A stretch of 64,000 bases of DNA. Origin: Atriophallophorus winterbourni. Its lineage: Eukaryota; Platyhelminthes; Trematoda; Plagiorchiida; Microphallidae. The position numbers and the translations under genes were made by a program. The notes beneath the pieces were generated by a model, which did not search any database, had not been told where the DNA came from, and was given only the letters and a program-made list of their open reading frames with translations. This document shows, piece after piece, positions 3,225-48,728 of the stretch. How positions within the stretch are numbered: the stretch's first letter is position 1; each line of letters starts with the position of its first letter. The stretch covers positions 99,243 to 163,242 of the forward strand of contig JACCGJ010013208.1 in NCBI GenBank assembly GCA_013407085.1, read 5' to 3'.

Positions 3225-3425
3225 GTCTGCGTGTGAATGAGTGGATCAATTTTGACCGCACCTCCGAACAACAAGGACATACTCATCCGTGTCAAGCCCA
3301 TCGAACTATTCAAAAAGTTGATCACGACGGTCCATAATGGAAGCACTGGACTCGTGTTTCGCTCTTATTTGAGCTCATCAGCAGTGCATGGATGAGTAGT
3401 CACAAATATAAAGAACATATTCTCC
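3225..3425 (-). mobile_element. Sm-alpha-like SINE copy carrying a hammerhead
   Basis: On the minus strand the segment reads as a hammerhead motif followed by a stretch shared with the copy at 7484-7700: 'gtgcttccattatg', then a 'gatcaacttt' block and 'agttcgatgggctt'. Short inverted sequences ('tactcatcc' and 'ggatgagta') flank the ribozyme. A related tail occurs at 6740-6806 and 38660-38765. Schistosome Sm-alpha elements are SINE-like and carry a hammerhead of this kind. The assignment is by architecture, not by a sequence search. Confidence 0.65.
3343..3387 (-). ncRNA. Hammerhead ribozyme, type I, intact core
   Basis: Reading the minus strand: stem I strand GCACTG, core CTGATGA, stem II GCTC-AAATAA-GAGC (four perfect pairs), core GAAA, a short stem III region CACGAGT, cleavage triplet GTC, then the second stem I strand CAGTGC (six perfect pairs with the first). 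All nucleotides needed for catalysis are present: CUGANGA, GAAA, and the U and C before the cleavage site. Stem III is only two pairs. Such short stem III helices are typical of animal retroelement hammerheads, which often work better as dimers. Cleavage is expected after position 3349 on the minus strand. Confidence 0.8.
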
Positions 3426-5984: not shown

Positions 5985-6560
5985 ATGGAGAACTAGCTGT
6001 TGCCCATGCAGCAAGTGCTCCCTCTCCACGGCACCATCAGAACCAAAGGATAGGCTGATACGTTTGGACAACGATGCCGTCGCAGGAGTTGGCAGGACGA
6101 AGTTGAACTTTGGACTACCTAACGGATTCGGGCTACGTATTTTTCATCGAGGTTGACTCCCGAAGCCTTTTGCATGATTGAATGTAGCCACAAGGCAGTT
6201 AAGGTTTGGGATAAGGGTTTTCTTTCTCCTAAGTGGACCGCCTTCATGGTCTTACGAGCTCCACCTGCTTGAAGCATGCTGATTTTGAGGCGCTAGCCAG
6301 CCACCATCGCCCTTTCTCCTGTCAGTAGAAGCAGTTCCGCCGGGTTACGCAAGATCACTTGTGCAGGTCAGTAGCTGGACTTGGTTGTCTGAGGTTATAT
6401 GAGACGTGCGCCATGAGAGCATTTTTAGAATTGGGAGCTTATCCCTAAAACCTCCCCTGCCGTGTCAACCTTGGAACCAGTAAGAGCAAGGAGTGGCAAA
6501 TTATTCAGGCCAAGAGATTAATCGGCCCTTTTATTGGCCACGATATTATAACCCACATTC
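5985..6560. repeat. GC-richer unclassified segment
   Basis: Base composition shifts clearly here: the segment is richer in G and C than the flanks on both sides and the edges are fairly sharp. No long open frame and no motif of a known element is visible. It could be an old repeat or a pseudogene. I cannot assign it. Confidence 0.3.
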
Positions 6561-6739: not shown

Positions 6740-6806
6740 AATATGTTGTTTATGTTTGTGACTACTCATCCGTGCTAAGCAAATTGATATATCACAAAGT
6801 TTAATC
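6740..6806 (-). mobile_element. Fragment of the hammerhead SINE
   Basis: The stretch around 6758-6780 carries the block 'gtgactactcatcc', which also flanks the ribozyme at 3388-3410 in the opposite orientation and recurs in altered form at 7680-7700. It directly precedes the RTE-derived element at 6807. Confidence 0.45.
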
Positions 6807-7165
6807 AACTCCGCCAAGGACGGTCCCAAGCCCGTCTGAGAAAGGAGGAGGAGGGTTGGGCTTAGGGCTAGCAACCCTATCCCGTAAAACCTACATTGCT
6901 ACGGAAACGATGACAACAGATCCGTGGTTCGGTCATGTCTGCAGGATGGATCCCAGTTCGCATACGAAGGTAGCCATGCACTGGCATCCGCAAGGTAAAC
7001 GAAAAAGGGGACGGCCCAAGGAAACTTGGCGCAGAACTTTGGAACGCGAACTACATGCACAAGGATTCACGGTGCAGACGGCAACGGAAGCAGCGACAGA
7101 CCGGAACCACTGGCGTGAAGTTGTCTTCGCCTCATGTGCCACCCGGCACGGAGAGGACTGAATGA
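6807..7165 (+). mobile_element. Short internally deleted RTE element (RTE-C)
   Basis: Two parts are joined. The first 110 bases or so (from 'aactccgccaagg') do not look like RTE coding sequence. The remainder encodes the C-terminal end of an RTE-type reverse transcriptase: Trp-Phe-Gly-His-Val near the start, then Gly-Lys-Arg-Lys-Arg-Gly-Arg-Pro and Thr-Trp-Arg-Arg, ending at TGA 7159-7161. The copy at 46491-46857 has the same start and the same internal junction, so this looks like a short non-autonomous family derived from a full RTE by internal deletion. It probably depends on the enzyme of the parent RTE. Confidence 0.7.
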
Positions 7166-10731: not shown

Positions 10732-10773
10732 CCCTACCTGATGAGTGCAAACAGCACGAAACCGGTCGTGGGG
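10732..10773 (+). ncRNA. Hammerhead ribozyme, ACCGGU family, intact core
   Basis: Stem I strand CCCTAC, core CTGATGA (10738-10744), stem II GTGC-AAACA-GCAC (four perfect pairs), GAAA (10758-10761), then CCGGTC with cleavage expected after the C at 10767, then stem I strand GTGGGG (six pairs, one of them G-U). Stem III is ACCGGU, self-complementary with no room for a loop. A single copy would therefore fold poorly but two copies could pair as a dimer, as described for other animal retroelement hammerheads. Related motifs occur on the minus strand at 24231-24267, 24355-24396, 38431-38462, 38563-38601 and 39636-39680. Confidence 0.75.
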
Positions 10774-31661: not shown

Positions 31662-34496
31662 ATGATATTAAAATATGGAAACGTGTCAGTTCTGTTAATG
31701 AATGTATGGCATTACAACGGGATCTAATCATCTTATTTCGTTGGTCCCAGTTAAATGAGTTACCATTTAACCCTGCGAAATGTAAAATGCTGCAGCTTGG
31801 GAAATCTCTGCACCACACGTATCAGCTTGGCATGCAAGATCTCGTCTGGACCACAGCAGATAAAGATCTGGGTATCTGGGTTTCGTTTAACCTGAAGTCG
31901 GGACAGCATTGCCGGATGGTGTACAATAAAGCTTGCCGTATCTTGAGTCTTCTCAAAAGAATATTCTGGATTTTTACGCCCGAAACCCTACTCCGGGTAA
32001 TTAACACATATATACGTCCTGTTATGGAATATTCCATCCAAGCCTGGGCACCGTGGCTGAGGAAGGACATCGAACTACTCGACAGGATTTATCATTGTGC
32101 TACAAGTTGGTCCCCCCTTACAGAAATTTGCCTTTCACAGAACGAATGTTAAAACTGAACCTACACCATTTTACCCAACGACGGATACGTAGTGACTTCC
32201 TGTTGACATTCAAAATCCTGCATACTGAAAACCATCCGCTTAAACACTTGCTAAAGCAAAATGGCCTTACTCGAACACGAACACATTCAAAGGCTTTAAG
32301 CATTCCGCATTCTCGATTGGATATACGTCGTAATTTTTTATCCGTAAGAATTTGTTTCACTTGGAACTATTTGCCTGAAGAAATCACATGATCAGAATCT
32401 GTTGAGGTTTTCGCTTCCAAACTCGATGAGTTTATGACGAACCGTGCGGTATGTGGGACTGTCCCTATTAATATATATAGATTTATATTCAATATACCTT
32501 GTCATCCTATGGTTATTGTTAAGCTTACTGCTTTTTCTACAATAAAATTTTATGAGTTCTGAGCCACATTTTAGTTATGCTCCAGCATATATTCGGACGG
32601 GTCTCCCCTGAAACATTCCCCGTGGTTGATTACTCAGTGTAAGCTTAGGCAGCATGGCTGCAAAATGACAACAAACTGCTCGAGAGGATTTATCACCGAA
32701 CAACTAAAATGGTTCACGGTCTTCGCAACTTCACATATGAGGATCGACTCGGATACTTGGATTCGATTGGATTTAATCCGCAACTCTAAAATATAGGACT
32801 CATAGATCCATCCTCTGAAACATCTATTTTGTCTCCGCTAAAGCGATACCACACGCATTAACACATTGGCATAGGATATTCCACATTCTCACCGAAACTG
32901 CCGTCGGTTCTTCTATTCGGTGCGCGTTTGTTTCTTAAGAACGTTATACAATCATCTAGTGAATGGATTTTCGAGAACAAACTGGATATATTTATGCTTG
33001 GTAATTCCACACTACATCCCGTTTATATAACTTAGTTGAGCAATCTTACACGACATTTATCGGGACGATTATTTTTTCATCATACCGAGACAATACACGA
33101 CATTTTTTCTAACTACAAACCCGTCGATTTTCCTAGTGCATCAATTTTGGTATATATTCAGTGTCGTTATACGATGATGTTGTGTAGCTACAAGGTTTTT
33201 ATGCCATATATTCTGGAAAACTTCAAATTCCGGATGGTCCAGGGCTTATTACATTAAATGGTCTGCGATTTGCACTCATCCGACCGTTAATAGAGACAGA
33301 CTTATCGCAAGGTTTGCCGTGTTCATTCAGCTTTAGAGTGAAATTCGCAACAGATTATAAGAGTAAGATTTTTTCCGGCAAGGAGTTCAAATTGAAACAC
33401 ATTCTACCTAAATACAAATTAAGGGCGACTATCCAATCGAGAAAGCTGTAGTAAGCGATTACGTGGGTGATTTGGTGAATAGTTTTGAAGCCCTATGTGT
33501 GGTCACTTTGTCTCTGAGGAATATCTGCTAGTTTGAGTTGGACTATTCGCTTTTGTACTGGAAAATTCTAGTAAATTGAGGTCAGGGACTTCAATGTCCG
33601 AACGCAGCAACGGCGACCACTTAGATTAGATAATTATACAACGTATACGACTCACTCCCATGTGGTATAGCGCATACGGCTAGCTAGCCGAAATACCTCC
33701 AAGTTGGTGCCAGCTAGGTACTCGGTTCTCCGGGATCAGCGAAAGATTCCGCGGTGTTGTCTGCGGATGTGGTGTTTTCGCCTGGCAAGCGTACTCCCTA
33801 TAGCAAGCCACAAAAATCAAATGACATCATGATAGGGCGGATGTGACTCGCCGCATTAAGTCACTTCCCCTTGTCCTATCTAAGGACAAGGATAGCGAAA
33901 ACTGCAGTCACCAACCAATCGACGGGGTTATCCTAATCAAAGATAGTCTGAGGTGTGGCAGAGATTTGATGGAAGGAACAAGCCTCGGAGATGGAGAGCG
34001 TCAGCTATGGGCAACATGCGAAGGCTATACCAATTCAACAATGTCAGTGACCTAAAGCCGCAGGCCTTAGTGAAGCCTCGAGGTTGATGGCTCGCGCACG
34101 AGCCTTTATAGGCGTTTAGACACCGCCATCCCTTAATCTCCTTTGCAATTATCCGTGATGCTAGCAAAGACATTGGTCGCCATCCATCTTCACAGGCTTA
34201 CGCCGATTCGATGGCACTTCTCTCGAAGAGCTAGCTGGTTTTCGGTTAGGTCACGAGTGTATACCAAAGTAGCCGATTAGCTGCCAACTTATGCTTTGAC
34301 TGGTGGGCGCGCTCACCTGGATGGGGTGCAAAGTACGGCATAAACTAAAATATGCAGTTATCTTATCAGTTCCCTCCGGGATTATTGTACACTCCTGTTA
34401 AACAGCACCCTGAATGTACCTGGTGTACATACATACATAAAAACATTTCTCTAATACGATAAGGCATAGGAACAACATAATGTAAATCAAAGTGGT

Positions 34497-34512
34497 GGCC
34501 CTAAAGAGGACC
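34497..34512 (-). terminator. Histone 3' stem-loop, mutated copy
   Basis: Minus strand GGTCCTCTTTAGGGCC. The intact copy at 41281-41296 is GGCCCTCTTTAGGGCC, so one C-G pair has become a T-G wobble. It belongs to the truncated H2A copy in arm 1. Confidence 0.75.
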
Positions 34513-34550
34513 GTTGTCAACAATCTCTTCCTTCGCCGAAGGTTTGCACC

Positions 34551-34785
34551 TTAGGCCTTGACTTTGTCGGTCTTCTTAGGCAGAAGTACGGTCTGAATGT
34601 TAGGCAGTACACCACCTTGGGCAATTGTCACACCACCCAAAAGCTTGTTCAATTCCTCGTCGTTGCGGATAGCCAATTGCAAGTGACGGGGGATGATGCG
34701 GGTCTTCTTGTTGTCGCGAGCAGCATTGCCGGCCAACTTCAGCAGCCAGATATTCCAGCACTGCAGCGAGGTACACTGGGGCAGA
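34551..34785 (-). pseudogene. Histone H2A, truncated and frameshifted copy
   Basis: The minus strand carries the C-terminal 76 or so codons of H2A, matching the intact gene at 40865-41242 with one amino-acid change (Ala to Thr in the Asn-Ile-Gln-Ala-Val block near the C terminus). The N-terminal third is missing: the copy stops at 34785, exactly where the MULE sequence begins, with 'gca' shared by both sides. An 8-base deletion near 34736 (between the Glu-Val and Ala-Gly-Asn codons of the intact gene) shifts the frame. It still keeps its 3' UTR and stem-loop. It lacks a promoter and cannot encode H2A. Confidence 0.88.
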
Positions 34786-35709
34786 TGGGGAAATACGTCA
34801 CGCCGTGTGACGTAAGAAACATGCGATGGAAGCTGCTGGCGAGTCGCAAAACCACAAGTTCTTTATACGACTTGAGCTCCCAGCTCAATAACTCCGGCCG
34901 TTGTTCTATGGAAACTGATGCTGAGAGCAATCTCACTCATTTCATATTTATGACGAATGAACAGATAACGCTTTGCCGCCGGTTTCCTCATTTCATTGGC
35001 ATTGACTCAACTTTCAAGAGTTGCCGTGAAAAGTACCACTTATTTGTCATTGTTGTGGTAGATGGCTGCGGTAAGGGTATTCCTGTTTGCTTCGGATGGT
35101 TGCGGACGGAGACCACAGCGTCCATATCTTTGTTCCTACGCAAGTTTTTGGAATTCGCTAACCCTGTTAGCATTCTGTCGGTCATGATGGATGACAGCGC
35201 TGCCAGTAAGGCTGCAGTGAGAGCTGAAATGCCAGCAGCACATTATACGGAATGTTACCAAAAGAGTATGTTCATCTTAATTACTTAACATGTTTACAGC
35301 AACCTGGTGCCTTGTTTATGAAGTGGTTCTACGTAGCCATGAGCACGCGCAACAGGTGGAGATAAATTCTATCTTTGAATGCCATGAATAGGGTTAACGA
35401 AACCCTATACCAACAGTACGTGAGGCCAAGACTGATCCACCGAGCCTCAATGTGGACAACAATCAGATCGCCTCGAGTTCCCACTTTTGGCCGAAGGGAC
35501 AATAACTTCGTTGAAGCCACCCATCGGTCAATTAAGAGACAATTTGTCTCTGGCAAGCTGTAGAACGAACGAAGGACGTCTTCCAACAACGCCTTCAGAA
35601 TCGTCAGGCTCTATTTGACTCTACCAGTCGTGGGCCTCGCGAAATTCCTCAGCACCCTGAGCTCGATGGAATGTACTCCCTGTTAGTACCCAAAGCAGTG
35701 GAATTGCTG
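34783..35709 (+). pseudogene. MULE-type transposase copy A, truncated
   Basis: The copy starts at 'gcagatgggg', fused to the antisense H2A fragment. The frame 34778-35288 contains the MULE transposase core: Ile-Asp-Ser-Thr-Phe-Lys (first catalytic Asp), a Gly-Ile-Pro-Val-Cys-Phe-Gly-Trp block, and Met-Met-Asp-Asp-Ser-Ala (second Asp). After an apparent non-coding insert beginning GTATGT (35265) another frame carries Asp-Asn-Asn-Phe-Val-Glu-Ala-Thr-His with the catalytic Glu (near 35515). A 20-base deletion near 35540, compared with copy B, breaks the end. The family resembles the FAR1/ZSWIM-like MULE transposases. The copy ends where copy B begins, tail to tail. Confidence 0.75.
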
Positions 35710-36733
35710 TCTTGTAACCTTCAGTCACCGCGGATAATTCCTGTATGTGGACGCAAGTCATCAGACGGTTTTGCCGCAGGTGGTCGGTCAGCAATTCCAC
35801 TGCTTTGGGTACTAATGGAGTACATTCCATCGAGCTCAGGGTGCTGAGGAATTTCGCGAGGCCCACGACTGGTAGAGTCAAATAGAGCCTGACGATTCTG
35901 AAGGCGTTGTTGGAAGACGTCCTTCGTTCTTTCTACAGCTTGCCAGAGACAAAGGTTCCCACTCAAATTATGCCTCTTAATTGACCGATGGGTGGCTTCA
36001 ACGAAGTTATTGTCCCTTCGGCCAAAAGTGGGAACTCGAGGCGATCTGATTGTTGTCCACATTGAGGCTCGGTGGATCAGTCTTGGCCTCACGTACTGTT
36101 GGTATAGGGTTTCGTTAACCCTATTCATTGCATTCAAAGATAGAATATATCTCCACCTGTTGCGCGTGCTCATGGCTACGTAGAACCACTTCATAAACAA
36201 GGCACCAGGTTGCTGTAAACATGTTAAGTAATTAAGATGAACATACTCTTTTGGTAACATTCCGTATAATGTGCTGCTGGCATTTCAGCTCTCACTGCAG
36301 CCTTACTGGCAGCGCTGTCATCCATCATGACCGACAGAATGCTAACAGGGTTAGCGAATTCCAAAAACTTGCGTAGGAAAAAAGATATGGACGCTGTGGT
36401 CTCCGTCCGCAACCATCCGAAGCAAACAGGAATACCCTTACCGCAGCCATCTACCACAACAATGACGAATAAGTGGTACTTTTCACGGCCACTCTTGAAA
36501 GTTGAGTCAATGCATATGAAATGAGAAAACCGGCGGCAAAGCGTTATCTGTTCATTCGTCATAAATATGAAATGAGTGAGATTGCTCTCAGCATCAGTTT
36601 CTATAGAAAAACGGCCGGATGTATTGAGCTGGGAGCTCAAGTCGTATAAAGAAATTGTGGTTTTGCGACTCGCCAGCAGCTTCCATCGCATGTTTCTTAC
36701 GTCACACGGAGTGACGTATTTCCCCATCTGCGT
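34783..36733. repeat. MULE palindrome, arms about 0.93 kb
   Basis: Copy A (34783-35709) and the matching part of copy B (35789-36733) are near-identical inverted repeats separated by 79 bases. The innermost pairing is 35686-35709 against 35789-35812. Few substitutions separate the arms (for example Thr-Ser-Ser against Thr-Ile-Ser), so the palindrome is fairly young. It is nested inside the larger H2A inverted duplication. Confidence 0.85.
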
Positions 36734-37590: not shown

Positions 37591-37632
37591 TTAAACTAGC
37601 ATTTTGTTCACCGATTGCGTTCATCAGCTACA

Positions 37633-38001
37633 ATGGCACCCAAGGTTGTTTCCGGAAAAGCCGCGAAGAAGGCCTCAAAGGTCAAAGTCCCCAAGGTTGA
37701 CAAGAAGAAGAAGCGAAGGAGGAAGGAATCCTACGCCATCTACATCTACAAGGTTCTGCGTCAAGTTCATCCCGACACCGGAATCTCGTCCAAGGCCATG
37801 TCCATCATGAACTCCTTCGTGAATGACATCTTCGAACGCATCGCTGCTGAATCCAGTCGCCTTGCTCATTACAACAAGCGGTCGACCATCACCAGCAGAG
37901 AGATCCAGACTGCTGTCCGTCTCTTGCTCCCTGGTGAATTGGCGAAACACGCTGTGTCCGAAGGCACCAAGGCTGTCACCAAGTACACCAGTACCAAGTA
38001 A
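37633..38001 (+). CDS. H2B: Histone H2B
   Basis: Core histone of 122 residues, partner of H2A in the nucleosome. A basic Lys/Ala-rich tail (residues 1-34, ending in a Lys-Lys-Lys-Lys-Arg-Arg-Arg-Lys run) is followed by the histone fold: [34 protein letters not shown] and the C-terminal Ala-Val-Thr-Lys-Tyr-Thr-Ser-Thr-Lys that is near-universal in animals. The start at 37633 gives the usual Met-Ala-Pro-Lys; an upstream TTG in frame is not a start. No intron. The stem-loop at 38033-38048 indicates replication-dependent expression without a poly(A) tail. Codons favour C and G more than the flanks. Confidence 0.97.
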
Positions 38002-38032
38002 ACGACCGTTGGCCGGTAGTGAACGCTTCCAC

Positions 38033-38048
38033 GGCCCTTTTCAGGGCC
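38033..38048 (+). terminator. Histone 3' stem-loop of H2B
   Basis: GGCCCTTTTCAGGGCC, followed by ACCACA. Six perfect pairs and a TTTC loop match the animal replication-dependent histone stem-loop bound by SLBP. It begins 31 bases after the stop codon. Confidence 0.93.
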
Positions 38049-38309
38049 ACCACATTGATTGCCCTATTCTGTTCCTATTGTCGATTTCGAAAGTACGATT
38101 GCATTCGGGGGTAGTGAGGGTTGTAGTTTTAGACTGCGTTGCGAATCATGTGACGTTCGTGTAGTCAAAACAGCGATAGTGGAAGATGAAAAAAACTTGC
38201 CAAGCCGGGATGGGGTTAGCTGGACATGTTGGTATGTTGTCTTGGAATTTACGATTGAGCTTGCGCCTCGGGAATTCAGTTTTAGTTTATACCACTAATT
38301 CTTGGGGCG

Positions 38310-40831: not shown

Positions 40832-41242
<411 letters not shown>

Positions 41243-41280
41243 GGTGTAAACCTTCGGCGAAGGAAGAGAACGTTGACAAC

Positions 41281-41296
41281 GGCCCTCTTTAGGGCC
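41281..41296 (+). terminator. Histone 3' stem-loop of H2A
   Basis: GGCCCTCTTTAGGGCC followed by ACCACT. Six perfect pairs, loop CTTT. It begins 38 bases after the stop codon. Confidence 0.92.
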
Positions 41297-41439
41297 ACCA
41301 CTTTGATTTACTTTATGTTCCTACGCCTTATCGTATTAGAGAAATGTTTTATGTATTCATGTACATAAGGTACATTCAGGGTGCTGTTTAACGAGAGTAG
41401 AATAATCTCGGGAATTGATGAGACAACTGCCTATTTTAG

Positions 41440-44835: not shown

Positions 44836-46380
44836 TACGATATGCATGAAAATGTGAAAATATATTAGTATAAAAGGAATAGAGTATATCAAAAGTAAGG
44901 CTCATGAAAAATATTCTTTTGCTTATATAAACCCAATTTCGCTTTAAATATCGCCAGGCAAAGAGAGTCAACCACATGCGGAAAAAATGGCGCCTACCAT
45001 CAATACGGGAACTCGGGACGTTATGGCATAAGGTACGTCCGCGTGTCACTTTCCCATCACACCCATCAAGCAAGTGCTTTAGTGGATGTCTTTTGGAAGA
45101 CAATTCTATAGGTCAGAATAATATCGCGTGCGAAGGACATCACTAAGTTTGTTGCACCGTAACAGATTTTAACAAAGAGAGCAATATCTTTTCTCCAAGG
45201 AGCCCATACCTCTACCGCAAACTCAATCGTAGGGCAAAGGAAGACATTCATTATCCTTGGTATTATTCAGTATCCTTGTTAACGTTACCAGTGACAGATA
45301 TCTAGCAATCTGCTGGCTTATCGATATATATCCTGGCAGTGAAGAGTGCTCTTCGGATTTTCACTAATCCATACTCTAAAATATTTTTCCAACGAGCTCC
45401 ATGTCAAGTTTTCAGTTCACAATCCATATGTCAAAGGAATATTCTTGCCAAGGTGGAGCATCTTACTTTTCCGTATGTTGAATGTCATGCCATTCACGGC
45501 CGGCAAATTTGACACGTTGTCCAAATCCCTTTGCAGGTTCTCACAATCATTTGTAGAACTAATTTGCGTCCAAATTTTCAGATCATCCGCGAACAGGATC
45601 ATTTTGGATGATATGAGGTGGGTGGGTGGGGGTAAATCGTGTATGTATAATAGAAGGAGGAGCGGGCCTAGGACGGATCCTTGTTCCCACAAGGATGGTA
45701 GGCTGGTGGTTTTGAACATGTGGGATATCAATCCATTTACTTTAACTCGGGCGTGGCGATCTGACAGATAGGCATACAGCCATGAATGGAGTGGTTCACA
45801 TATTCCTAGACAAAGTGATTCAAAGTTGTAATGGTCTTAAAAGCATTTAGCTTAACAATAACCATAGGATGGTGATTGACTCTGTCAAAAGCATTAGAAA
45901 TGTCTAAGTAACAGACGTGAATACAAGAACCTCTATCCAAGTCCTTCGCCCACTCGTCTAACGCTATGAGAAGATTCGCTGGACAAGAGCTGTGAGATCG
46001 AAATCCATGCTACGCCGTCGAAAACAAATTACGCAATTCAAAGTGTGCAACCATTCTTTCCGTGACTATGCGTTCTATTACCTCGCCAATAACAGGTAAT
46101 GGTGTGACGGGACGATAATTTACTTTCTAGTTGGTCCTAATTGATTCCATCATACATCTCGTTAAAAATGCTATTTTTAGAGGTTTTGGCCCGTCACCTT
46201 TACAGTTTGGTGACCGATGTATTCTTAACGTGTCCACCACGATTGACTAGTAAGCTCCGATGTTGTTGGCAATCTTGAGCTACTGTCTGCAATCGTGGCA
46301 TTGTAAATCACTTCCCAAAAAATGTTAGTGTGTTCGGGAACACCAGGAAGAACCACGCTGCGTTGGCCAGATTTATCCCG

Positions 46381-46400
46381 ATTTATCCCGCTTCGGCGGT

Positions 46401-46440
<40 letters not shown>

Positions 46441-46490
46441 GGCCCCTGCGCAAGGATGACACGCAAAATCGTGAAGCGTTCCATATTTTT
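46381..46490 (+). ncRNA. U6: U6 snRNA, full-length retrocopy
   Basis: An essentially complete U6 sequence: a 5' hairpin with a TTCG loop (CCGC-TTCG-GCGG, 46388-46399), the ACAGAGA box that pairs with the 5' splice site (46423-46429), the AGC catalytic triad (46435-46437), the internal stem-loop, and the 3' end gcgttccatattttt. U6 is the catalytic RNA of the spliceosome. This copy lies inside a CR1 ORF1, without a visible proximal sequence element or TATA box, and its terminal T-run runs straight into the RTE-derived element at 46491. It is therefore a retroposed chimera and probably not expressed from its own promoter. Confidence 0.93.
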
Positions 46491-46857
46491 AACTCCGCCA
46501 AGGACGGTCCCAAGCCCGTCTGAGAAAGGAGGAGGGTTGGGCTTAGGGCTAGCCACCCTATCCCGTAAAACCTACATTGCTACGGAAACGATGACAACAG
46601 ATCCGTGGTTCGGTCATGTCTGCAGGATGGATCCCAGTTCGCATACGAAGGTAGCCATGCACTGGCGTCCGCAAGGTAAACGAAAAGGGGACGGCCCAAC
46701 GAAACTTGGCGCGAACGATGGAACGCGAACTACATGCACAAGGATTCACGGTGCAGACGGCAACGGAAGCAGCGACAGACCGGAACCACTGGCGTGAAGT
46801 TGTCTTCGCCTCATGTGCCACGCGGCACGGAGAGGGCTGAGTGAGTGAGTGAGTGAG
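46491..46857 (+). mobile_element. Short internally deleted RTE element, U6-fused
   Basis: Nearly the same sequence as 6807-7165, starting at the same base ('aactccgcc') and ending in a (GTGA)n tail (46841-46857). The RTE C-terminal frame is disturbed by small indels (for example near 46685 and 46712). The element and the U6 copy form one inserted unit in CR1-F. Possible target duplication: 'tttatccc' on the left (46383-46390) and 'ttttatctccc' on the right (46870-46880), which is imperfect. Confidence 0.85.
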
Positions 46858-47094
46858 TTTAAATTACCTTTTATCTCCCACTACGAATATCAGCATGTAT
46901 GCGACATTTAGTTTGCGGACCAGCACGGAGCAAATAAGACTTTAGAAGAACGTCTTCCATCTCTTTCTGGATTTTAAGAATTTTCCTCAGTAGACGCGGT
47001 TCGCCAAGATGAGGAGAATTGGGGCGCCGACTTAGGCGGGTTATTAAATCAAGCAGTACCGAGCTCATCCATCATTGAACAAAGGTGTTACCAT

Positions 47095-48728
47095 TGCTCA
47101 ATGTCGTCAGTTCAGTCTAATAAAATTTTAATGGTCTAGAAAGCATATAGCTTTAAAAAAACAGAATAATGTGGGAACTACGAATAATGTAACAAGCAAA
47201 AACGGGATTCGGTTGCTTACTGAGCAGTTCAAGAATCAGGTAAAAATCCAAAGGGCGGAAATTATTTTCAATTGGTGGGATGACAAATGTTGATGCATGG
47301 GGTCAAGATGTATAGTTTTCTTCGATGCACGGATTAAGGGTCAAAAAGGCATCAAGGCTTCTCTTGAAAGTTTGCTGATTTGGTGAGTTTAGAACATAAT
47401 CTGGCAGATTGTTCCAAGTAAAACAAACTCGCACGGCAAAAAATGGCGTCTACGGTTGAGTCGTGAGTGAGGGACACTTAGAATGTGTGAGCTCTTGTCT
47501 TATGCGAGCCCCGTAGATTAAATAAGCATTGTATTGGGTGATTTGCGGTATTCAAACCAAAATCAAATCCCCGGAGATGACGACGTGGATAATCGAATAA
47601 ACTCAGGGTTTTGATTCGCTCATTGTCTCCGACTGAGTCCGGCGACAAGTTTGGTAGCTCAATCGTGTATTCTTTGCAAAGTCGCAACATCTTTTTTAAG
47701 CTATGGCGACCATGCCTAAACTGTATATTCAATCGTGGGTCTGATGTACGAATTTATAATGCAGGGAATTATCTGTTTTGTGAGGAGCGACAATTTCTGT
47801 GATGTTTTGCGATAGACGGAGTTACAGTGGCTCGACATCCCTAAGGTGATGCTTATCAACACACCCAAGTCCTTTTGTTCCATGGTCCACGAGAGGCTGT
47901 GTGTACCAAGAAAATACTGGAACTCCACATATTTTCCAAGGTTTAACGTGTCACTTTTGGAAATTGAAAAATAGGCGATTTCTAGAGACCAAACCTGGAG
48001 TTTGTCCAGATCCTTCTGGAGCAGTTCGCAGTCTTCCGGCTTATTTATCCCCGACCACACTTTTATATTGTACGCGAACAGTACGATCTTACATTTGATG
48101 AGAGCCGGTATGTCATTGGCCTAAAGTGCGAAGATGATTGGTCCGAGGACGGGTTCCTGAGGCACTCCACTTGTCACGGCTACCGACTTCGATAAAGCTC
48201 CGTCCACAGAGACTTGATCAAGCCGATCAGTCAGATAATTTCCTAACCAAGCTAATAGTCTGCCTGTGCTACCAAAACGTTCCAGCTTCTGCAAGAGAAT
48301 ACTGTGGTTTACACGGTCAAACGCTTTCGACATATCGAGGTAACATACAAGGTTAGTAATGCCGGAGTATCCCTTTCTAAACCCGTGTTGCGCTCCCAAA
48401 ATAGCTTATATTCTTCAAAGTATTTGCTCAGTTTGTTCGACACGATCCTTTCGAGCACCTTGGATACGGCGGAAAACGAGGTAACAGGCCTGTAATTTGC
48501 GGGCTCTGAACGCGCCCCGCCTCTGAAAATCGGAGAGATTATACCTCATTTCCATTCCGTCGGTATGACACTTTGGGACAGCGATTCGCAAAACAACTGA
48601 CACAGAGGTCCGCATAGAATTTGTGCACAATGCTTGAGTATATTGGGGATAATTTTATCATAACCAAGGGATTTTCTGAGATTCAACGATAGTAGAGTTC
48701 CTCTTCTTTGGTAATGGTTACTGTGTCT
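47095..48728 (-). mobile_element. CR1-E, broken ORF2
   Basis: RT and C-terminal parts only. His-Gly-Phe-Arg-Lys, Ala-Phe-Asp-Arg-Val-Asn-His and Val-Ala-Val-Thr-Ser-Gly-Val-Pro-Gln (48399-48121), the thumb region with Lys-Asp-Leu-Gly-Val (48060-47716), and a C-terminal block (47732-47478). The FADD region near 48075 is damaged (Val-Arg-Tyr-Asn-Ile in place of it). The 3' end has the CR1 signature 'ttttaatggtcta' with a short tail at 47105-47130. It abuts CR1-F. Confidence 0.75.

Follow-up and report, generated by a model that had tools for sequence, protein, structure and literature searches.

A U6 snRNA retrocopy joined to an RTE-derived element at a predicted twister cleavage step in Atriophallophorus winterbourni

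The insertion and its surroundings

The stretch of DNA analysed here (the window) comprises 64,000 nucleotides of contig JACCGJ010013208.1 from the trematode Atriophallophorus winterbourni (assembly GCA_013407085.1, positions 99,243 to 163,242, forward strand), and coordinates given below are those of the window. On the plus strand, a core histone gene (PF00125, H2B-like; 37615-38072) and an H2A-like ORF (40865-41318) are each followed by a match to the histone 3' stem-loop (28.4 and 28.9 bits; cut-off 34), and a third, weaker stem-loop match lies at 34472-34517 on the minus strand. A nearly 2-kb inverted self-match at 34781-36731, 94% identical, forms a large palindrome with similar ORFs on both strands. 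Two hammerhead matches, one to HH9 (3340-3389, minus strand; 34.2 bits, cut-off 52) and one to type I (10732-10773, plus strand; 32.9 bits, cut-off 34), probably belong to other ribozyme-bearing repeats.

A U6 snRNA sequence and a short RTE-derived element, joined to one another, lie within the ORF1 of a CR1-type LINE, where a preliminary description of this DNA had placed them. The low-coordinate side of the host ORF1 (46200-46383, minus strand) was identified by tblastn against the window's minus-strand ORF1, and 12 of 12 CR1 copies align up to 46374-46383; the high-coordinate side (46857-47100, minus strand) adjoins base 46383 flush in the closest insert-free relative, L111, in which the left flank ends at query base 185 and the right flank begins at base 186. 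The relatives were obtained by a genome search with the low-coordinate CR1 flank, from which the best 40 of 508 candidates were scored and 12 fetched; they are about 77-85% identical over the flank matches and are paralogues, from loci other than that of the window. The site was uninterrupted, with neither U6 nor RTE sequence, in all 12, some of which differ by a few bases at the insertion point, with several bases missing there in L115. The CR1 element of the window thus gained bases 46384-46856, the insert proper, at a single position, where neither a duplication nor a loss is apparent. Because the CR1 relatives run through the site, the U6 and RTE parts represent one insertion: they were inserted as a single unit, with U6 in the sense orientation at the 5' end of the element, as had been proposed. 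Comparison of the flanks with each other and with the CR1 relatives, a check that had been suggested beforehand, revealed no target-site duplication at this chimera. The 5' junction of U6 carries a 7-nt filler, TATCCCG (46384-46390, plus strand), which, read against the CR1 copies, repeats the target bases 46374-46380; its last two bases (CG) are equally assignable to U6, and the filler looks like a product of the joining of the U6 end of the cDNA to the target.

The U6 part occupies 46389-46490 on the plus strand, corresponds to U6 positions 6-107 and ends in five T. It was delimited by a match to Rfam RF00026 (46383-46490; 110 bits, E 8.3e-28, above the gathering score of 44) and by the two best U6 matches in the genome, both of 116.5 bits with the start GTACTCGC and six terminal T, which served as the reference. 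The two begin GTACTCGCTTCGG and are 87% identical over about 440 bp that end with U6 itself, a common stretch for which they were taken as likely U6 genes. The window U6 is identical to both from position 6 onward, so that 102 of 107 nt are present; its description as complete holds through the terminal T-run but fails at the 5' end, where the first 5 nt are absent. With those bases missing and CR1 sequence abutting the 5' end, this sequence was filed as a retrocopy rather than as a U6 gene with its own promoter.

The RTE-derived element and its 5' end

The second part of the insert (46491 to about 46856, plus strand), delimited by blastn to other copies, is a non-autonomous, internally deleted element of RTE type that ends in a tail of (TGAG)n. 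It corresponds to both ends of a 3.16-kb element whose ORF encodes a 1000-aa endonuclease-reverse transcriptase, one end being matched by the first 102 bases of the short element and the other by its C-terminal part. Over 3.16 kb this full copy is 98.7% identical to another, and its ORF contains an endonuclease (PF03372), RVT_1 (PF00078) and DUF6451. The features found are those of an RTE-type element, namely a single ORF with endonuclease and RVT_1, target-site duplications and a tail of short repeats; its placement in the RTE clade is putative and follows the preliminary description. A protein search with a 101-aa piece gave 14 matches, one of which carried an organism name (the coral Oculina), and a search of viral contigs with the element 5' end gave none.

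A second copy of the element in the window (6807-7165, plus strand) is 96.4% identical, begins at the same first base, lacks U6 and is flanked by AAAGTTTA repeats. In a genome search, the best 40 of 1191 candidates were scored, 35 of which begin at base 1. Nineteen of the first 20 copies fetched begin exactly at AACTCC and one is truncated; 18 of these 20 have duplications of 10-13 bp located at, or at most 3 bases from, the end of the element, and two of the 18 share one site. Fourteen further copies were picked because their match extended a few bases further to the left, and all 14 begin at the same base, nine of them with duplications of 11-14 bp and two pairs sharing a site. Combined, 33 of 34 fetched copies start at base 1 and 27 of 34 have target-site duplications of 10-14 bp. 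The claim that U6 abuts the first base of the element (46490/46491) is thereby borne out. U6 was present on none of the 34 copies, which are the best-scoring copies and no random sample; the case in which every copy of the element carries U6, named in the preliminary description as one that would undo its reading, did not arise. Two copies, L101 and L109, have three extra T between a clean duplication (12 and 14 bp) and the first base, possibly untemplated bases or the last remnants of a U6 tail.

The 5' end of the element matches the twister-P1 ribozyme (RF03160) at 46486-46540 on the plus strand with 47.0 bits, the E value being 2.5e-9 when 601 bases were searched and 2.6e-7 for the window as a whole. 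The 5' bases of this match are the tail of U6, and the ribozyme proper begins at A+1, base 46491, as element base 1 aligns to the adenine 3' of the twister U-A cleavage step. The second, U6-free copy gives a match at 6802-6859 on the plus strand (39.7 bits). Both window matches fall below the Rfam gathering score of 67.2 and are missing helix P3, and for these reasons the element was kept outside full RF03160 membership; stems P2 and P4 are present, as is the conserved core, in which A+1 sits at the cleavage step, and the 5' end is described as a truncated twister-like variant with predicted cleavage. Genome-wide, 62 twister matches were scored among 23,719 first-look candidates, the best of 56.6 bits and none above the cut-off, while the same search found no match in any of 14 control genomes. 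Twenty twister loci were fetched; an identical AAC opens 19 of them, and 12 of the 20 continue into an endonuclease-like start, the others into shorter or rearranged copies. In an alignment of 12 sequences, one P4 pair covaries (CG 7, AU 4, UG 1), the remaining pairs of P4 and those of P2 are nearly invariant, and the proportion of paired cells is 97.9% for P2, 100% for P4 and 55.6% for P1. The covariation and pairing give modest support to a ribozyme fold, as judged from the alignment. A review places A+1 of twister directly 3' of the scissile phosphate (PMC6707401, in the cited passage), and published work reports that twister can do without stem P1 and shows no conservation at the base 5' of the cut (U-1; PMC5408937, likewise). 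Furthermore, truncated but competent twisters at RTE 5' ends are mentioned in one sentence, as work 'in preparation', in the cited section of PMC7761336.

U6 junctions across the genome

The junction in the window (46490-46491, plus strand) joins the last U of U6 to A+1 of the element, which in the RF03160 alignment is the predicted twister cleavage step. A genome search for U6 followed by the element, as had been suggested, found this junction at exactly three places, the window and two loci on other contigs (L095 and L096), with identical letters, zero mismatches and the same position relative to the cleavage step. Two further matches had 3 mismatches, compared with 3 matches for a reversed control pattern. 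When 0-12 free bases were allowed before the element, the same three places alone were recovered, each with zero extra bases, and the control gave 0. The three differ in their flanks and in the length of U6 retained, which is 102 nt in the window, the last 38 nt in L096 and the last 30 nt in L095; this loss on the 5' side is what would be left by a cDNA primed in the RTE tail and running into U6. All three junctions have five T, compared with six in the two best genome U6 matches, a difference that speaks for an RNA intermediate. An imperfect 8-bp repeat (TATATAGG) surrounds the L095 chimera, and no target-site duplication was found at L096. When the RTE part of each chimera was compared with those of the other two and with 32 copies free of U6, three truncated copies being left aside, none of the three were mutual nearest relatives, and they ranked 13-34 of 34 to one another; one rare element base is common to L095 and L096.

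Joins of U6 to other LINEs, which the preliminary description had listed as something to look for, were also found, and they are, like the ribozyme match and the 5-nt loss from U6, absent from that description. In a genome search with U6 the best 48 of 38,638 candidates were scored, so that the counts are a lower bound, and short remnants such as L095 and L096 are missed; 31 representatives were kept from the 48 places after two gene-like sequences and 15 duplicates were dropped. In 7 of the 31, a sense LINE protein match begins at the 3' end of U6 (in L035 a weak one, E 7e-4), compared with about 2.2% at random positions, or an estimated value nearer 2.5% after skipped draws are removed from the denominator; an antisense LINE match ending at the 3' end of U6 was found in 0 of the 31. 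U6 is joined in sense to 5'-truncated CR1 pieces at varied internal points, with no consistent target-site duplications at these U6/CR1 chimeras among the matches listed. L015 has CR1 sequence upstream as well and could be an insertion inside CR1. Three loci on one contig (L018, L019 and L020) represent a U6/CR1 chimera copied by duplication, 95-99% identical over at least 2 kb.

A second LINE-like repeat, which starts GGTTCCAAGG, is also joined to U6. The 5' part of this repeat is present, free of U6, at 6139-6478 of the window (minus strand), and 35 of its best 40 copies (of 3799 candidates) begin at base 1; compared by position, L011 alone among these 40 copies coincides with a place given by the U6 search or by the junction pattern search described next. 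A pattern search with at most 3 mismatches found U6 joined to base 1 of the repeat (U6 followed by GGTTCC) at 18 places, with 0 for the control; eight of the 18 had already been fetched and are partly duplicates of one event, and ten are known by the pattern alone. The T-run is four in several of the 18, so a run of five is not universal. The fetched loci with this abundant repeat, joined at the U6 T-run, are L011, L031, L025/L030/L032/L034/L047 and L043-L046. The group L025/L030/L032/L034/L047 shares 1.6-2.1 kb of upstream flank and is probably one event multiplied by duplication. No ribozyme was found at the start of the GGTTCCAAGG repeat in Rfam searches with E up to 1 at nine loci, five of them with that repeat. 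Since U6 is also found on 5'-truncated CR1 and on a repeat without an Rfam ribozyme, a twister is not required for the joining of U6. At L024 and L036, a second partial U6 5' hairpin lies downstream of the U6 copy, which suggests a U6-to-U6 jump or the U6-like head of another element.

Origin and meaning of the junction

U6/L1 chimeric retrogenes of mammals were reportedly described by Buzdin, Garcia-Perez and Moldovan. The LINE part of L1 chimeras often lacks its own 5' end, and the point at which U6 is joined therefore varies.

The chimera described here is like the mammalian ones, as these are presented in the cited parts of PMC4476161, PMC13174262 and PMC13247085, in that a sense-oriented U6 precedes a LINE at its 5' end, is connected to it through the U6 T-run and arrived with it as one insertion; it is unlike them in that the element is of RTE type, the join falls at element base 1 in all three cases found and at a predicted ribozyme cleavage site, U6 is 5'-truncated and there is no clean duplication. 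The preliminary description treated such chimeras as known for L1 and the RTE case as new; this does not hold, because chimeras of U6 with the RTE-like LINE RTEX-2_Acar (3 copies) and with L2 (3 copies) were published for Anolis in 2015, according to PMC4476161. Passages of the same paper also report, as unsure cases, two opossum copies of U6 that are truncated at the 5' end and lie next to RTE_Mdo and RTESINE1, and they already call U6 chimera formation a general property of non-LTR elements. They record a duplication in 19 of 21 U6/U6atac cases, a usual feature of such chimeras but no requirement. The Anolis and opossum cases resemble ours in combining U6 with an RTE-clade LINE or a short derivative, and the opossum cases also in the 5' truncation of U6 and the lack of an obvious duplication; however, they are from vertebrates, and the cited parts of that paper mention neither a ribozyme nor a fixed 5' junction. 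The truncated twisters of PMC7761336 are alike in position and in a proposed role in 5' processing, but the section cited contains no mention of U6 or of ligation to U6. The bipartite RTE families and RTE-mobilised SINEs of hagfish (PMC7245038, as cited) are similarly internally deleted RTEs with 5' and 3' parts and a small-RNA head upstream; there the head is fixed in the family, whereas here U6 is sporadic (3 events). The WEIRD/MGL chimeras of Magnaporthe (from the cited part of PMC2104539) are likewise LINE chimeras outside vertebrates, but with another RNA partner and junctions inside the LINE. In the open-access literature, subscription papers being outside its scope, no report was found that connects U6 chimeras to the cleavage site of a ribozyme, nor any on U6 retrotransposon sequences in trematodes. 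What is new here is the twister match at the junction, the three letter-identical junctions, the same start in U6-free copies and the other U6 joins.

The reading that we favour, if by little, is that U6 RNA was ligated to a freshly self-cut RTE RNA end before the LINE enzyme copied the fused RNA. A read-through RTE transcript would cleave itself through its twister, at the bond between N-1 and A+1, and so acquire a 5'-OH; with any base allowed at N-1 and no need for P1, a copy could cut wherever it had landed. An RtcB-type ligase would then join this 5'-OH to mature U6 ending in five U with a 2',3'-cyclic phosphate, and target-primed reverse transcription from the 3' tail would run across the junction into U6 and stop before its 5' end. 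The cleavage, the 5'-OH, the cyclic-phosphate U6 of this animal, the ligation and the ligase are steps that we infer, and the end chemistry of U6 is carried over by analogy from other organisms. U6 is among the RNAs captured by 2',3'-cyclic-phosphate sequencing (PMC9138997, in the cited part). Furthermore, a 2026 review, in the passage cited, lists the joining of U6 and L1 as a 'pro-transposon' RNA ligation beside reactions of RtcB and cites Moldovan 2019 (PMC13247085). Against ligation stand the missing or imperfect duplications at the three chimeras, as opposed to the 10-14 bp seen in most of the U6-free copies.

Nearly as credible, at somewhat less than an even chance, is template switching, in which the RTE enzyme copies the RTE RNA up to its 5' end, whether or not the ribozyme made that end, and then moves onto a U6 RNA at its 3' end; this is the model of PMC4476161, as set out in its cited part, and of the preliminary description, and a 2026 survey leaves both ligation and switching open for U6/LINE chimeras (PMC13174262, in the section cited). 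If the enzyme ran off the 5' end of a ribozyme-cut RNA and jumped from there, the same junction would result, and a jump made by the enzyme is also expected to give joins such as those of U6 to varied internal points of CR1 and to base 1 of a repeat without a known ribozyme; at the U6 5' end, at least, the filler suggests switching or slippage. The three RTE junctions, however, have no extra bases at all, and template jumps often add bases. U6 is the partner throughout the chimeras studied, yet all of them were found with a U6 query, so this gives no independent evidence. For this element we place ligation slightly ahead of template switching, because neither RNA end would need further preparation and no base was added or lost in any of the three.

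Far less probable is a composite SINE family with a U6 head that spread as a unit, which would make the three copies siblings. The common junction letters and the rare base shared by L095 and L096 are in keeping with such a family, but the 5' ends of U6 differ among the three, and it was rejected because the head is not in most family copies (0 of 34, these being the best-scoring ones) and the chimeras are not nearest relatives. Both sequences are retrocopies in a repeat-rich region, as would be expected had U6 and RTE been inserted independently, in either order; this was rejected as having next to no chance, given the threefold exact abutment and the single insert relative to the CR1 copies, and RTE insertion usually makes duplications of 10-13 bp, none of which separates U6 from the element. 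An assembly artefact at 46485-46495 is just as improbable, since the junction recurs letter for letter on two other contigs with different flanks.

If one base 5' of A+1 suffices for cleavage by this twister, as it does for the twister assayed in published work, the chimera transcript would be recut at the same bond, and the U6 head would be lost rather than inherited. Such recutting would account for the absence of a U6-headed family despite three U6 events, and it predicts that repeats without an active 5' ribozyme could retain U6 heads. More tentatively, ribozyme-cut RTE RNAs may be ready ligation partners, whose self-generated 5'-OH becomes joined to RNAs that carry a 2',3'-cyclic phosphate, U6 foremost; bipartite RTEs might thus keep gaining small-RNA heads and found SINEs, with an active twister stripping the head so that only lineages that lose the ribozyme keep it. 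With a fixed junction base at a predicted ribozyme product, the position of each end in the proposed ligation is defined, which makes the choice between ligation and template switching accessible to direct test. Altogether, such a mechanism would tie two separate literatures, on the 5' ribozymes of LINEs and on the origin of SINE heads, to one chemical step.
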